Below are positions 18,987-30,884 of a DNA stretch of 43,584 nucleotides, piece after piece (positions within the stretch are counted from its first letter, which is position 1; the number at the start of each line of letters is the position of its first letter). The position numbers and the translations under genes are program-made. The stretch is from the NCBI GenBank assembly GCA_947455705.1, contig CANGPO010000015.1, forward strand, positions 1-43,584, read 5' to 3'. A model generated the notes under the pieces. It ran no database searches. It was not told where the DNA came from and saw only the letters and a program-made list of their open reading frames with translations. The DNA is from Actinomycetota bacterium. Lineage in GTDB: Bacteria; Actinomycetota; Actinomycetes; S36-B12; CAIYMF01.

Positions 18987-19148
18987 CTACTTCGTTCCGA
19001 CAATGCAGCGGGCGGCGCCAGGGATGTGAACGCGCACATCCTTCATGTAGCTTCCCACTGAAGCAATCACACGATTCGCGATTCGCTCTCCGGTCGCTTC
19101 GTCTGTCTTCCGCAGAGCCGCAACCGCGAGCGAGACGTGCTCGCTCAT
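18987..19148 (-). pseudogene. 3' remnant resembling a class I SAM-dependent methyltransferase
   Basis: A 53-residue reading frame with natural-looking codon use (SLAVAALRKTDEATGER, then a hydrophobic helix and VHIPGAARCIVGTK). The pattern, a helix with ATGER followed by a basic/hydrophobic helix and a final strand IPGAA-x-x-IVG, resembles the C-terminal end of small SAM-dependent methyltransferases. The SAM-binding part is missing. The homology-like region stops at about 19150, precisely where the recombinase fragment on the other strand begins, so it looks like a gene cut by an insertion or deletion. The frame continues upstream only as antisense to that fragment. Family assignment is from recall of the pattern and is uncertain. 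Confidence 0.4.
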
Positions 19149-19154
19149 CAGGAC

Positions 19155-19361
19155 TCGCCGGTGTTCAGCCGCCGCGACGCCGGCTACATCCCCGTCTGCA
19201 GCCTCCACAGGGTGTTCTGGCCCGACCGTGAGGCGGCCGGACGCCCAGATCTGCACGTCCACGACCTACGCCGCACTGGAGCCGCAGTGGCGGCCACCAC
19301 CGGCGCCACCCTCGCCCAGGGCAAGGTAATCGACCTCAAGGCCCGCAGCGTCACCGGCTGA
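19155..19361 (+). pseudogene. Tyrosine recombinase (phage-type integrase) fragment
   Basis: Residues encoded from 19155 to about 19316 read like the middle of an actinobacterial phage-type integrase: SRRDAGYIPVCSLHRVFW, AAGRPDLHVHDLRRTG and then AATTGATLA. HDLRRTG contains the H-x-x-R box (H and R of the active site). After ATLA the normal continuation (ELMARLGHS and the final HxxxY active-site tyrosine region) is replaced by an unrelated 14-residue tail and a stop. The N-terminal DNA-binding and first catalytic arginine regions are absent too. It therefore cannot be active and marks a decayed integrative element. The linked tRNA-Arg gene with a duplicated 3' end 2.3 kb away supports this. 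Confidence 0.75.
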
Positions 19362-19692
19362 CTTCTGGGCTGAGCCAACAACCGGGCGCGTGGTAAGGAT
19401 TGCGCCCTCATCGCAACTACCGCCGTAGGAGTTGAGGATTGAACCCGAGCCCTGGCATTTTCTTACCTTGTCAATGCGCCGTGAGCTACAGGCCTTTTGG
19501 GTCGAGCGGATGCGGTATCACCGTTGCATTAGTTGCCGGCTGCTCGATGATTACTCCCGCGAACAGTTCGGTAGCGCCGTGTGCCCGTCCGTCGTGCCTC
19601 GAAAGTTACCTCCGACGTCCCACCTGAGAGTAATGTCATCCCCGGCGGGTGGTTCTCGGACGAACTCCCCGATGCGCAAACCTAGGGGGGTT
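19362..19692. other. Gene-poor stretch in the element remnant
   Basis: Nothing convincing is coded between the recombinase fragment and the secreted-protein start. The frame of the downstream gene is open through part of it, but the residues (many Cys, Arg, Ser, Pro) do not look like protein. A short frame at 19439-19627 has a chance lipobox-like stretch. The last bases hold the ribosome site AGGGGGG of the next gene. Confidence 0.4.
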
Positions 19693-20592
19693 ATGAAGCG
19701 CCGAATTGTCCTGATCGCGGTAGCAGTTGCCGCTTCATCGATTTGGGCGCCGCTGCTCTGGGCTAAACCGGCAATGGGCGGCTCGCAGCTAGAGATCCTG
19801 GTCGTTACGACAGGCAATGAGAGTGATGCTGAGGCGATCGCGAATATGTCCGCCAAGGACCCTCAGTACCGCACGGACGCTATGGCACTCATCGAGGGGT
19901 GGAAGTCTTCGATCGCGTCTGGTGACTCACTGGACTTGCGAGGCCTGACCTCGCCGCTCACTGCGCAAAGGCAGCTCGATCAGCTGTCGGCGCTGTCAAG
20001 TCGGATCAGCACACAGTTTGCATCTGTCTCGCACACCGCTGTCACGCAGCCGCCCGGAAGCGCCACCCCAGTGGAGTCGGCCGGAACGTCCCTCATTGCC
20101 AGCGACACGGTGGCAGTAGCGGCGGTGGATGGCGGAGATCCCAACTCTTTTGCGGTTCGGGGCGTCGTCGGGAGTGGTCGGACATCGTGGACCAAGATCG
20201 GGTTGATCGTTGCAGCGCACTTCTGCAACCTACAAGGCTGCCAAGCGGATACGGACCGATTCTCCTGCACGGTCACTGTCAATCCGGGCGCTGTCACGAG
20301 CAAGATCGGTTCCCCTCTGTGCTTGTACTCGCCGAACGCCGGAAACTTCGGCAATAAGCACTACCAGTTGTGGGCGATCAACCGCGGCAGCGTTGTCGGA
20401 AGCGCGAACACCGGCGATGTGTCGGGCTCGGGGACCTACTACGTCTCAAGTACAGGGTCCCTCCGCGGAACGGCGCTCACCGTGGCCATCACGTTGTGGG
20501 TCTTTCTCAATCCGTTCGGGTCGTACACGGCGGATGGCGCGAAGACGCCGGACGCTACTTGTCACACGACAGACAACGTCTGTGTCTACTGA
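19693..20592 (+). CDS. Secreted hypothetical protein with six cysteines
   Basis: I do not recognise this 299-residue protein. The ATG at 19693 begins a clear Sec signal peptide (KRR, then hydrophobic VLIAVAVAASSIWAPLLWA, with AKPA as the likely cleavage site near residue 25) and has an AGGGGGG ribosome site 2-3 nt upstream. The frame is open from 19432, but the upstream residues look random. After the signal come an acidic/polar helical part (about 30-110), a Ser/Thr/Ala-rich linker and a C-terminal domain with cysteines at 178, 183, 192, 210, 290 and 297, plus a hydrophobic stretch (GTALTVAITLWVFLNPFG, about 260-276). Disulfides are likely. It sits between the recombinase fragment and the attachment-site repeat, so it is probably cargo of a lost mobile element. 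Confidence 0.7.
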   Translation: MKRRIVLIAVAVAASSIWAPLLWAKPAMGGSQLEILVVTTGNESDAEAIANMSAKDPQYRTDAMALIEGWKSSIASGDSLDLRGLTSPLTAQRQLDQLSALSSRISTQFASVSHTAVTQPPGSATPVESAGTSLIASDTVAVAAVDGGDPNSFAVRGVVGSGRTSWTKIGLIVAAHFCNLQGCQADTDRFSCTVTVNPGAVTSKIGSPLCLYSPNAGNFGNKHYQLWAINRGSVVGSANTGDVSGSGTYYVSSTGSLRGTALTVAITLWVFLNPFGSYTADGAKTPDATCHTTDNVCVY

Positions 20593-20648
20593 GTCTGGGT
20601 GAGTGGAATGAGTCGAAACGAGTTGCGCACTTGAACAGGGAGCGAGTT

Positions 20649-21122
20649 ATGCCCCGCCGGGATCTCGTTCCACGGGAGCTGGGCACGCCGGTTTGGATGG
20701 TCGCGCGGGGGGATTCCGCGACCGCCGTCTTTCACGGAGTTGCGGCAACGGAGGAGGGCGTCTTTTGCGTCCTTGACGTATTGGGTCAGGACTGCGATCT
20801 CTCGCTGGGATTTGGTCTTGATGGACCAGGCGGTTCGCAAGAGCCGCAGGTCTGGTTGGAGGTACTCAGTGCGGATGGCGATGTTGGCGATTCGCATCTG
20901 TCACAACTCGTAGCCGGGGAGGGCGGGCGATCTGACGACGGACTGGAGCGCTGGACGTTTCGACTTTGGTTTCCCCTAGACCTCGATGCAACCAAGTCCG
21001 CCACACTGCACATCCGCTGGGCGATGCTCGAACCGAAAGACGGCGAGGTGCAACTGTCCCTCGAGGCGCTGAAGTCCGCCGCGGCGCAGGCGGTGCGATT
21101 CCAGGACCTTAAAGTGCTTTGA
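20649..21122 (+). CDS. Hypothetical protein, 157 residues
   Basis: I do not recognise this protein. It begins at an ATG with a good ribosome site (AGGGAGC, 8 nt upstream), 56 bp after the secreted-protein gene, so the two may be co-transcribed. No signal peptide or membrane segment is seen. It is acidic (many Asp, Glu and Gly) and its alternating hydrophobic pattern (TAVFHGVAATEEGVFCVLDV, then WTFRLWFPLDLD) suggests a beta-sandwich or similar fold, ending in a helix (EVQLSLEALKSAAAQAV). The short frame, location and lack of relatives that I know of suggest cargo of the decayed element. Confidence 0.65.
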   Translation: MPRRDLVPRELGTPVWMVARGDSATAVFHGVAATEEGVFCVLDVLGQDCDLSLGFGLDGPGGSQEPQVWLEVLSADGDVGDSHLSQLVAGEGGRSDDGLERWTFRLWFPLDLDATKSATLHIRWAMLEPKDGEVQLSLEALKSAAAQAVRFQDLKVL

Positions 21123-21143
21123 GCAATCGGCCGCGAACGCGTC

Positions 21144-21416
21144 TCAGACGGTCAGCAGACAAGCGCATTGCAAGACCGTCGCTCCGCCAGACGAGAGCCC
21201 ATGCGGGGCAATGGTTTCCCAGATTGTGCCGTTCTCTGACGTGCGATCGTTCAGAAGGTTGTCTGGTGCCAGAACGATGCTGACCGTTACAGTGACGACC
21301 AGGTGAGTGATGCTGGCACGGCTGGGCGTCGCATGGCTGTTCATCGCGAGGGGGGCAGAGATCGGCGATGGCGTCACGTTCGCGAACCTCCATTCCCCTC
21401 CCAGTGCCACGGCCAA
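21144..21416 (-). CDS. Possible small hypothetical protein (doubtful)
   Basis: A 90-residue minus-strand frame, convergent with the preceding gene. It has mostly G/C third positions and one hydrophobic stretch (ITHLVVTVTVSIVLA). No ribosome site is clear and I recognise no family. It could be a real small gene, a remnant, or chance in a region without other coding sequence. Confidence 0.2.
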   Translation of the reverse strand: MAVALGGEWRFANVTPSPISAPLAMNSHATPSRASITHLVVTVTVSIVLAPDNLLNDRTSENGTIWETIAPHGLSSGGATVLQCACLLTV

Positions 21417-21517
21417 ACGATCAAGATCGCGGCGATGACTCCTCTGGCTCCACGAAGCGGAGCGCCCGGCAGGGCAAGAGGCGAATCACACCAGTGGAAG
21501 CCTCTGAAAGCCCCACG

Positions 21518-21541
21518 TGGCACGAAATGTGGCACGAGATC
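21518..21541 (+). repeat. Two adjacent 12-bp tandem repeats, candidate integrase arm sites
   Basis: TGGCACGAAATG (21518-21529) is followed directly by TGGCACGAGATC (21530-21541), with 10 of 12 bases equal. They lie 42 bp from the duplicated tRNA end at 21584. Phage-type tyrosine recombinases bind short repeated arm sites near the core attachment site, so this is a plausible remnant of such sites; that is inference. Confidence 0.5.
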
Positions 21542-21583
21542 CGGAAAATCGCTGAAATCCCTTGTTACCATTGAAGAAGTTGA

Positions 21584-21598
21584 GTGCCCCCGGCAGGA
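21584..21598. other. Attachment-site remnant: 15-bp copy of the tRNA-Arg 3' end
   Basis: GTGCCCCCGGCAGGA (21584-21598) is identical to 21691-21705, which is the acceptor/T-stem end of the tRNA-Arg gene. Integrative elements that use tRNA 3' ends leave exactly such a direct repeat. The 107-bp spacing means only a sliver lies between the two copies, so this may be the outer end of a deleted element or one of several stacked events. The location beside arm-like repeats and in the same locus as an integrase fragment supports the reading. Confidence 0.65.
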
Positions 21599-21604
21599 CC
21601 CGTC

Positions 21605-21622
21605 GAATCGCTTTCGCGATTC
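21605..21622. terminator. Short perfect hairpin beside the attachment repeat
   Basis: GAATCGC (21605-21611) pairs with GCGATTC (21616-21622) around TTTC. It could be a weak terminator or just part of the attachment region. Confidence 0.3.
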
Positions 21623-21646
21623 TCCGGACCTGACTGTGTCATGAGA

Positions 21647-21692
21647 ACGCCCTTTCCTAACCCCGCACTCGTGCGAGGTTAGGAAAGGGCGT
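21647..21692 (-). terminator. Terminator hairpin of the tRNA-Arg gene
   Basis: A perfect 16-bp inverted repeat (21647-21662 with 21677-21692, arm ACGCCCTTTCCTAACC) encloses a nested GCAC-TC-GTGC hairpin. It begins at the last base of the tRNA on the minus strand, so it fits a factor-independent terminator of the tRNA transcript; GTTCT follows. It might also stop read-through from the plus strand. Confidence 0.75.
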
Positions 21693-21763
21693 GCCCCCGG
21701 CAGGATTCGAACCTGCGCGCATGCCTCCGGAGGGCACCGCTCTATCCCCTGAGCTACGGGGGC
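21692..21763 (-). tRNA. tRNA-Arg (anticodon CCG)
   Basis: A complete cloverleaf fits on the minus strand: acceptor GCCCCCG with CGGGGGC and discriminator A; D-arm GCTC-AGGGGATA-GAGC; anticodon stem GTGCC/GGCAT with loop CTCCGGA, giving anticodon CCG (plus-strand 21728-21730) that reads CGG; variable loop of 4 nt; T-arm GCAGG-TTCGAAT-CCTGC. The 3' CCA is not encoded. It sits divergently, 48 bp from the arginyl-tRNA synthetase start. Its 3' end is duplicated at 21584, so it has served as an integration target. Confidence 0.96.
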
Positions 21764-28825: not shown

Positions 28826-30733
28826 GTGACCGAGACCACCCAGAACACCCGTAAGTCAGGCGGCCTCTCGACGATGCTGCTGCCCGAACTCAAGTCGCTT
28901 GCCGGCTCGCTGGGAATCCCAGGTGCGTCGGGGATGCGCAAGGCCGATCTTGTGTCGGCCATTAGCGCCAAGCAGGGCGGTGGATCATCATCCCGTCCAG
29001 AACGCTCCGCCAGTTCAGAGGCGCCGGCCCGTGAGCCGCAGTCCGCTGAATCAGGTGAGCGCCCAGAGTCGCGTGAATCGCGCCCGACGGATGAGGCTGG
29101 CGATCGTGGCCCGCGTCAGAGTCGCCAGCGTGACCGCGGCCGTGGACCACGTACCGATCGCGAACCGCGTCAGGATTCGGGCTCTGCCGATGATCGTTCG
29201 GCGGCACAGTCGTCGGACGCCACCAGTGAACGCACGAACGACCGCAATAGCAGTGATCGCAACAGCAGCGATCGCAACAACAGTGATCGCAACAGCAACG
29301 ATCGCAATAGCAGTGATCGCAACAGCAGTGATCGCAACAGCAGTGAACGCAACAGCAGTGAACGCAACAGCAACGACCGCACGAACAACGATCGGAACAA
29401 CAACGCCGACCGTGGCGATCAGGGCGGGTTTGATGACGACCGCAATGGCCGCAATCGCCGTCGCCGTCGGGGCCGTGATCGTCAGGGCACCGGCTTTGAA
29501 CGCAACGATCGCAACGATCGTCAGAGCCGTGACCGTCGCCCACGTGGCATGGAGGGCGACTTTGAATACAACGAGGATGACGTTCTCGTTCCAGTAGCCG
29601 GCATCTTGGACATCATGGACAGCTACGCCTTCGTCCGCACGAGTGGCTACCTGCCAGGTCCTAACGACGTCTATGTCGCGCTATCGATGGTGAAGCGTTT
29701 CGGACTTCGCAAGGGCGATGCCGTCACAGGCATGGTCCGCCAGCCGCGTGAAGGTGAAAAGCAGCAGAAGTTCAATCCTGTTGTTCGCATCGACACCGTG
29801 AATGGTGCAGAGCCAGAGGCGTCCAAGGGTCGAGTCGACTTCAACAAGTTGACCCCGCTCTACCCGCAGGAGCGGTTGCGCCTTGAGACTGAGCCAGCGA
29901 ACCTCGTAACCCGAGTTATCGACTTGGTTGCCCCGATCGGTAAGGGTCAGCGCGGTCTGATCGTTAGCCCGCCGAAGGCAGGTAAGACGATGGTTTTGCA
30001 GGCAATCGCCAACGCCATCACAACCAACAATCCTGAGGTCCACTTGATGGTCGTCCTGGTTGACGAGCGTCCTGAGGAAGTCACCGATATGCAGCGCTCG
30101 GTTAAGGGTGAGGTCATTGCCTCGACCTTCGACCGCCCTGCCGAGGATCACACCACGGTTGCTGAACTCGCCATCGAGCGAGCAAAGCGCCTTGTGGAAC
30201 TTGGCCATGACGTCGTCGTACTTCTTGACTCGATGACCCGCCTCGGTCGTGCCTATAACTTGGCAGCACCAGCAAGCGGGCGAATCCTGTCCGGTGGTGT
30301 TGATTCAGCAGCCCTGTACCCGCCAAAGCGATTCTTCGGTGCTGCTCGCAACATCGAAAACGGTGGTTCGTTGACGATTTTGGCAACGGCACTCGTCGAG
30401 ACCGGATCCAAGATGGACGAGGTCATCTTCGAGGAGTTCAAGGGCACCGGAAACATGGAGCTCAAACTCGATCGCAAGCTTGCTGACAAGCGGATCTTCC
30501 CTGCGGTTGACGTTGATTCATCAGGTACCCGTAAGGAAGAAATCCTGATGGCACCAGATGAGCTCAAGACCGTTTGGAAGCTGCGTCGAGTACTTCACGC
30601 ACTTGATCAGCAGCAAGCCATTGAATTGCTGCTCGGCAAGTTGCGCGAGACCAAGAGCAACATCGAATTCCTGCTTCAGGTACAGAAGACCACTCCGGTC
30701 GCTGTGGGTTCGTCGAACGACGACGAATACTAG
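28826..30733 (+). CDS. rho: Transcription termination factor Rho
   Basis: A 635-residue hexameric RNA helicase that ends transcription at Rho-dependent sites. The Rho N-terminal helical domain ([14 protein letters not shown], about residues 17-45) is followed by a long basic/polar insertion of about 190 residues, as in other actinobacterial Rho proteins. It contains eleven five-residue repeats around RNSSD (138-192). Then come the OB-fold RNA-binding domain ([20 protein letters not shown]) and the RecA-like ATPase with Walker A PPKAGKT (about 382-388), Walker [11 protein letters not shown] and the R-loop region [19 protein letters not shown]. Translation starts at GTG (28826). The insertion is thought to bind RNA in relatives. 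No neighbour overlaps. Confidence 0.97.
29237..29401 (+). repeat. 11 in-frame 15-bp tandem repeats inside rho
   Basis: Eleven units of 15 bp, with commonest form AGTGATCGCAACAGC, run without gaps from 29237 to 29401. Several units are identical and the others differ at few positions. Each unit encodes five residues around S-D-R-N-S, so gain or loss of units keeps the frame. This is the likely product of replication slippage. Confidence 0.95.
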
Positions 30734-30884
30734 GCGCACTGTTTCGTCCCGAAATCGTCACCATTTGGCCGTCACGGGTCAGCGGTGGCACACTTAAAGT
30801 CCGCAGGTATGGCGTCAGTGTCATCCCTAAGGTTCCGGTTCACGCACCAGGTGCGACCCGGCGCCACGAAATGAGGAGTTAGTC

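Follow-up and report, generated by a model that had tools for sequence, protein, structure and literature searches.

Copies of a transfer RNA (tRNA) 3' end found beside tRNA genes are normally read as footprints of mobile elements. Among known systems, the closest is probably the rtT repeat of Escherichia coli tyrT, whose tandem units follow the tRNA gene and each repeat the 3' end of that tRNA. Integron attC sites, which form arrays, have conserved ends with a variable palindrome between them, and the hairpins of the REP/RAYT (repetitive extragenic palindromes and their associated transposases) and IS200 types have a GGAG-like foot before the hairpin. The locus described here lies at the tRNA-Arg(CCG) gene of a 43,584-nt contig from an Actinomycetota bacterium (CANGPO010000015.1), which in its entirety is called the window below (G000:C15, G000 being the window's own genome). 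An initial annotation had described its stretch 18987-21763 as the scar of an integrative element.

Analysis of this locus leads to an account in two layers, a decayed element and a tRNA-end repeat unit whose RNA would exchange strands with the tRNA; taken as a whole, we give this account an even chance. The second layer is a defined structured unit with a tRNA-specific arm, present behind many tRNA species across several actinobacterial groups. It is proposed tentatively, and with somewhat more doubt than the exchange itself, that these units form a previously undescribed class of RNA elements behind actinobacterial tRNA and transfer-messenger RNA (tmRNA) genes, which would act as strand-exchange switches on tRNA maturation.

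The Repeat Unit and Its Copies at tRNA-Arg

The last 15 bp of tRNA-Arg(CCG) (21691-21763, minus strand), which read GTGCCCCCGGCAGGA on the plus strand, occur exactly at 21691-21705 and again at 21584-21598, 107 bp apart, as initially annotated. This match is not due to chance since it recurs in relatives, four times in G007 when the tRNA itself is included. Between the two copies lies one worn unit (21584-21690, minus strand), delimited by comparison with relatives and by folding. On the tRNA strand, the order within a unit is a long terminator-like hairpin directly behind the tRNA (H1; 21647-21692, minus strand, by folding), a 9-nt arm, the motif GGAGGAG, a variable hairpin (H2), the motif CGACGG and a spare 3' half of the unit's own tRNA. 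A covariance model recognizes the T-arm-like module with H2 at 21594-21635 (minus strand, 34.9 bits). The window's unit lacks most of GGAGGAG as well as the T-loop part of its arm. The units that were read measure about 60-180 bp.

The number of units varies at this gene. In G007, four cores spaced by 112, 116 and 107 bp delimit three units, whereas the window has one. Counting the tRNA, four cores are found in G008:C428, two in G008:C255 and two in G006, one of them with a mismatch; three each are present in G015 and G012, members of another genus of the family. Beyond the array, G008 and G010 have a homologous flank (640/776 aligned positions identical; score 419, with none of 20 shuffles exceeding 16.5), and G010 has no unit at tRNA-Arg while G008 does, so that the two form a presence/absence pair. 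In G009, a unit stands at the left end of the integrative element (on two contigs whose link we infer), where it would be expected had the element come in at the tRNA next to a native array. The two sides of the window's unit match different units of G007, one of them unit 1 and the other unit 3, and the unit thus looks like the product of a collapse of the array by recombination.

By these comparisons, the 107-bp spacer is a worn representative of a family of tRNA-end units in actinobacteria. Such arrays also follow other tRNA genes and are found whether or not an integrative element is present, which argues against the spacing having arisen from stacked elements, one of the two origins initially considered for it. 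Stacked islands at tRNA genes are known (PMC3218068), but the idea that the 107 bp are the remains of one of several ordinary integration events is highly improbable, because they match a unit that also follows other tRNA genes and occurs in genomes that do not have the element's arm there.

Occurrence behind Other tRNA and tmRNA Genes

As MAFFT misplaced the variable hairpins, a covariance model (R1) was built from four units, leaving out those of the window, of G006 and units 2 and 3 of G007; it recovered all four. The family of 17 genomes from which it was derived contains matches in 15 of them at E<=0.1. Forty of these places were fetched, and ARAGORN calls a tRNA directly upstream in 25 (Gly, Ser, His, Ala, Pro, Leu, Thr). 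Inspected by eye, all 25 units behind a tRNA terminate with that tRNA's own 3' end, which in some of them contains a mismatch. The remaining 15 are contig ends, tmRNA ends (the run called tRNAs only), arrays without a tRNA, such as that of G000:C11 with its tRNA-Pro-type end, and the chance-like L121. The tRNA-less arrays may have been displaced by islands.

The tRNAs of G000 and G007 were searched for a second occurrence of their own 13-nt end within 450 nt downstream with at most two mismatches, which was found for 8/40 tRNAs of G000 and 8/39 of G007. A rerun with a slightly different start gave 8/40 and 9/39, against 1, 0 and 1 of 40 and 1, 1 and 3 of 39 in three control directions. Unit counts differ between these two close relatives at the Arg, Ser(CGA), Gly(CCC) and Ala(GGC) tRNA genes.

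A second model (R2) was made from 52 matches, those above E 0.0003 being dropped; L094 and L121 were excluded from both alignment searches and L098, L119, L122 and L123 also from R2. At E<=0.001, it finds units in 80 of the 148 genomes of the order, 13/17 inside the family and 67/131 outside it. Within a sample of the phylum, 6/396 genomes match at E<=0.0001, the window's genome included, in a search that scored 14 candidates per genome, so that some units will have been missed.

A wider scan of 84,980 species genomes used a single pattern, suited to T-loops giving ATTCG or AATCG. It returned 75 stretches, and every title that names an organism is actinobacterial, the rest being "uncultured bacterium". 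The taxa include Nanopelagicales, genera of Intrasporangiaceae, Rarobacter, Ruania, Demequina, Alpinimonas, Microthrix and one Acidimicrobiales genome; carriers with named strains include Phycicoccus, Terrabacter, Pedococcus, Knoellia and Rarobacter. Of 82 pattern matches, 66 lie at most 150 nt behind a tRNA or tmRNA of the same strand, compared with 0/82 in each of three control directions. Fourteen of these 66 follow a tmRNA, and the tRNAs concerned also include Tyr and one called by ARAGORN as selenocysteine (SeC). The end of the adjacent gene is carried with at most 2 of 13 mismatches by 55/66. Among the other 16 matches, six have a tRNA or tmRNA at 155-202 nt and ten have no upstream ARAGORN call in the locus. 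The motifs GGAGGAG and CGACGG are also found in another class of the phylum, and they follow more than 10 tRNA species.

Some loci depart from the common order. Behind tRNA-Ser(GCT) of G000 (L198, G000:C37), the GGAGGAG module, which is normal in G007, gives way to a near-perfect palindrome composed of sequence from the two sides of the CGACGG end. L090 and L215, behind tRNA-Ala, have a second type of unit, with a tRNA-end copy, a terminator and a hairpin but neither GGAGGAG nor CGACGG. Behind tRNA-Gly(CCC) of G007 (L181/L197, G007:C55), several TGGCACG repeats resemble integrase arm sites; G000 has two units instead. Finally, L088 (G000:C76) matches the ALIL pseudoknot at 870-1001, with 51.2 bits for an Rfam threshold of 50.

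Structure and Covariation

Ten tRNA-strand stretches, representing nine units with the window's in two lengths, fold with z-scores of -2.97 to -8.57. In a small alignment of 7 rows, 6 of them distinct (A3), 5/12 pairs change on both sides, all five in H2, and the covariation score was reached by 0/500 shuffles. In the larger alignment of 71 matches (A7, 64 distinct), covering H2 and the outer stem, 96.4% of the cells are paired and 134 show changes on both sides, for a shuffle mean of 40 and again with 0/500 shuffles as high. H1 has a median of 19 pairs over 66 distinct cases, and G.T exceeds A.C in it (29 vs 9, p 0.0017).

The Antisense Arm and a Predicted Exchange of Strands

For each arm, taken as the 9 nt that precede GGAGGA, mismatches were counted against the reverse complement of the corresponding part of the adjacent gene, namely T-loop positions 56-60 and four bases of the T-stem. 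Over 108 distinct pairs of a candidate unit with its own tRNA or tmRNA, the mean is 0.54 mismatches of 9, and 0.16 of the 5 loop bases. After re-pairing with other genes, the means are 1.82 and 0.96, the best of 500 shuffles being 1.57 and 0.80. Genes without a TTCRANN motif were skipped, and four pairs with 4-5 mismatches, probably not units, were kept in the mean; some of the units come from the loop-restricted pattern, and the shuffle preserves composition. No exact partner for the loop bases of the arm exists in the spare end of the unit itself, and an internal hairpin thus does not explain this tracking. It is explained by pairing with the real tRNA, and it would also be by DNA templating in a quasi-palindrome.

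When the four poor pairs are dropped, the arm mismatches of the remaining 104 are mostly at the outermost position. In the five positions of the T-loop part, 6 are wobble, 0 A.C and 1 other. Together with the G.T excess of H1, these wobble mismatches are as expected for an RNA of the tRNA strand.

Energy calculations point in the same direction. The exchanged fold is lower in energy than the cloverleaf in 51/62 distinct tRNA-plus-unit RNAs, a set restricted to units with at most one mismatch in the spare end (of 13) and at most one in the arm (of 10). In a set of 73 taken without the arm filter, the arm pairs with the tRNA's own T-half with a mean probability of 0.67 (0.06 for shuffled arms) and with the spare end with one of 0.09 (0.15 for shuffled arms), and it prefers the T-half in 61/73. 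The window's worn unit is not among the folded RNAs.

According to this model, in transcripts that read through H1 the arm would capture the real 3' half of the tRNA, the spare 3' half would then pair with the tRNA 5' half, and the product of this strand exchange would be a tRNA-like RNA with an enlarged T-loop. Such an exchange of the tRNA 3' half is a prediction that we regard as possible, at slightly less than even chances. In this account, integrases can also use spare ends as additional attachment sites, of which the window is a probable case.

Several results weigh against it. The window's own unit is too worn for the exchange as drawn, and its plus strand likewise has a good fold (z -6.88). 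The distribution is patchy, as no unit was found in G004 and G016 with R1 (E<=0.1) or in G004, G010, G014 and G016 with R2 (E<=0.001). Weaker measures of covariation are less favourable: both-side-changed pairs are as high in 6/500 shuffles and pair types in 41/500 for A3, and in 18/500 and 105/500 for A7, which moreover was fitted to its structure and whose last few matches of 71 are probably due to chance. The G.T excess over A.C is not significant in H2 (9 vs 2, p 0.065), and over the whole arm the mismatches of the 104 pairs comprise 14 wobble, 9 A.C and 17 other, with no wobble excess. H1 is terminator-like, 25/66 having at least 5 T in 8 at the 3' side; with this likeness to an intrinsic terminator in some of the units, transcription may seldom reach the module. 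Furthermore, 11/62 RNAs do not favour the exchanged fold, and nearest-neighbour secondary-structure energies ignore both tRNA tertiary structure and folding order.

Alternative Explanations

Next after RNA strand exchange, the main rival is that the unit is a miniature site-specific DNA cassette, free of genes, which a recombinase inserts at the tRNA 3' end and which carries a terminator and restores the tRNA in the manner of islands. The units are flanked by direct copies of the tRNA end, integration classically targets tRNA and tmRNA ends, the array is present in G008 and absent from G010 beside a homologous flank (640/776), and unit counts differ between close relatives, all of which would fit such a cassette. 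However, no gene lies between the copies in the units read, an inverted arm copying each tRNA's T-loop is unexpected of an attachment site, and the single pattern tried gave no match in viral contigs. The number of units (R1, E<=0.1) is also uncorrelated with that of tyrosine recombinases in the 17 genomes of the family (Spearman 0.09, p 0.74). PF00589 proteins occur in 17/17 of them, with only two each in G001, G004 and G015, presumably XerC and XerD; G001 and G015 nevertheless have units. On balance, the cassette is unlikely, although it keeps an appreciable share of our belief.

Some narrower ideas were also set aside. A unit number that tracks integrase number was rejected for want of any correlation, and carriage of the units by phages for want of a viral contig match to the one pattern (ATTCG/AATCG T-loops). 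Transposition of the IS200/REP type was dismissed as PF01797 (Y1 transposase) is found in 0/17 genomes, among them the 15 with unit matches at E<=0.1, and a retroelement or group II intron mechanism as PF00078 (RVT_1) is likewise found in 0/17. A spliced T-loop intron was rejected by eye, the spare half having no T-loop bases.

The units could also be repeats under weak selection, in which a terminator and a tRNA-end copy multiply by slippage or homologous recombination and the arms are kept complementary by template switching in a quasi-palindrome centred on H1. The window's unit, with one side like G007 unit 1 and the other like unit 3, and the palindrome that stands in place of the module at tRNA-Ser(GCT) of G000 are in keeping with such events. 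Against this, the recurrence of GGAGGAG and CGACGG in another class and behind more than 10 tRNA species implies constraint, and we consider this explanation quite improbable, below the DNA cassette.

Still less probable is that the spare ends are decoy attachment sites that divert integrases from the tRNA. The arm of the element is indeed joined to the outermost spare end rather than to the tRNA in both the window and G007, but in G009, G002, G006 and G005:C192 it joins a tRNA itself. In G009, the unit is at the far end of the element (assuming that its two contigs are linked), the units could have been added later between tRNA and element, and a decoy gives no role to the arm and the module.

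The Decayed Integrative Element and Its Neighbours

The scar of an integrative element at tRNA-Arg(CCG), as initially proposed, is supported by comparison with relatives. A 2.9-kb query against 60 genomes, the own genome included, aligns nearly completely only in that genome and in G007 (99%), and parts of it align elsewhere within the genus. Its right 137 nt, up to and including the 15-bp core, are found twice each in G002 and G005 and also in G006 and G009, in no case with the 107-bp spacer; a tRNA-Arg (CCG or CCT) comes directly after them everywhere except in G005:C11. In the window, the element's right attachment arm of 123 nt (21461-21583) is fused to the spare tRNA-Arg 3' end (21584-21598, minus strand). 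It shares 121/123 positions with G007, 109/123 with G009 and 96-101 of 124-135 aligned positions with five other ends, compared with 66-73 of 140-146 for the arm-less tRNA-Arg alleles of G001, G003, G004 and G010. The arm contains GTGGCACGA twice (21517-21525 and 21529-21537), which resembles integrase arm sites. A further stretch (21154-21315) is common to the interior of the G009 element, at 74%.

Behind the left core, G002 and G009 have an open frame for a 381-aa integrase (PF00589, E of about 7e-13 and 8e-13), of the same family as the window's remnant. Sizes are measurable only for the elements of G002 (4.2 kb, at tRNA-Arg(CCT)) and G005, that of G009 being on two contigs. The G005 element, 5.8 kb from core to core, lies between the amidohydrolase and tRNA-Arg/argS, with about 3 kb of other open reading frames (ORFs) between the amidohydrolase and its left core; its cargo is an ABC-transporter ORF and its integrase is apparently split into two frames. 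Of the alleles that the initial annotation had suggested looking for in relatives, those free of the element exist (G001, G003, G004 and G010), and one with an element between amidohydrolase and argS exists too, but with a split integrase. In three relatives, c-di-AMP riboswitch matches were noticed near the tRNA-Arg locus or the element end (L053, 3633-3754; L044, 7732-7908; L038, 2185-2325).

The integrase pseudogene of the window (19137-19361, plus strand), aligned to the 381-aa integrases, corresponds to their C-terminal part. It had been annotated as truncated at both ends. The first 268/381 residues are indeed missing, but the C-terminus is kept, and what is absent besides is an internal block of 36 residues including the RIGHSTPAMALRYQHA stretch, which presumably holds the catalytic tyrosine. 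This ORF has no Pfam match at E<=1, being too worn, and a PHROG integrase match only at E 0.075. It overlaps near 19137-19166 with the C-terminal remnant of a UbiE-like methyltransferase (about 18990-19166, minus strand), a tail that was correctly recognized from the start: tblastn gives 56.9% over 58 aa to an ORF of G010:C172 that belongs to PF01209/PF13649.

The left core of the window's element is lost, as one of the initial suggestions had it: compared with 15.0-21.7 kb, the left ends of the G002, G005 and G009 elements gave only the core and chance-level matches. As the core repeat is found at the right end only, the locus is classed as a decayed remnant and not as a complete element. The element itself is an ordinary, decayed tyrosine-recombinase element. 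It is a small one, located on the outer copy of the tRNA-Arg end; in relatives, the integrase is at the left end and the cargo differs. A single deletion, for which the overlap of the two remnants makes the simplest history, would have taken the left core, the N-terminus of the integrase and the front of the methyltransferase.

Two orphan ORFs, already noted as such, are probable cargo: one of 299 aa (19693-20592, plus strand), likely exported to judge by eye from its N-terminus MKRRIVLIAVAVAASS, and one of 157 aa (20649-21122, plus strand). Neither has a match in family searches, and a comparison across 19 loci finds both in G007 only, at 99%. The flanking genes are ordinary, as had been stated, namely an amidohydrolase (PF07969) and argS, a name taken from the initial annotation for a frame with 78-95% identity in relatives. 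Tandem repeats had been reported too, but Tandem Repeats Finder detects no array in 18987-21763. Its three rows are at 29.2-31.2 kb and include a 15-bp repeat array at 29239-29399 (8.7-10.7 copies). Rfam matches an L31-Actinobacteria ribosomal protein leader at 30829-30865 (41.6 bits).

Comparison with Known Systems

Should the unit act on tRNA maturation, tRNA control would have a layer not recognised so far; should it act as DNA, it would be a cassette system without genes, and one that gives rise to false island boundaries. No description of it was found in the literature searched, whose coverage was partial. Like rtT RNA, the unit repeats copies of the tRNA 3' end behind the tRNA, but it does so behind many tRNA species and tmRNA, with an antisense arm to the T-arm and a covarying hairpin. 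In an Rfam scan of the window and 12 loci, no family but tRNA, and hence not that of rtT, reached threshold over the units, where the other matches were sub-threshold.

The unit resembles integron attC sites in its conserved ends, variable palindrome and arrays. Unlike integrons, the units read are too short for ordinary genes and show no gene cassettes between the copies, and their ends follow the tRNA. With REP/RAYT and IS200-type hairpins, it shares a GGAG-like foot before the hairpin, whereas no Y1 transposase is found in the 17 genomes of the family. Finally, the window's decayed element, with its tRNA-end core, integrase and displaced copy, is comparable to the tRNA and tmRNA islands with tyrosine integrases, such as those of Islander (PMC4383910) and the actinomycete integrative and conjugative elements (PMC3218068); the repeat units differ from these islands in having no integrase and in their small size.

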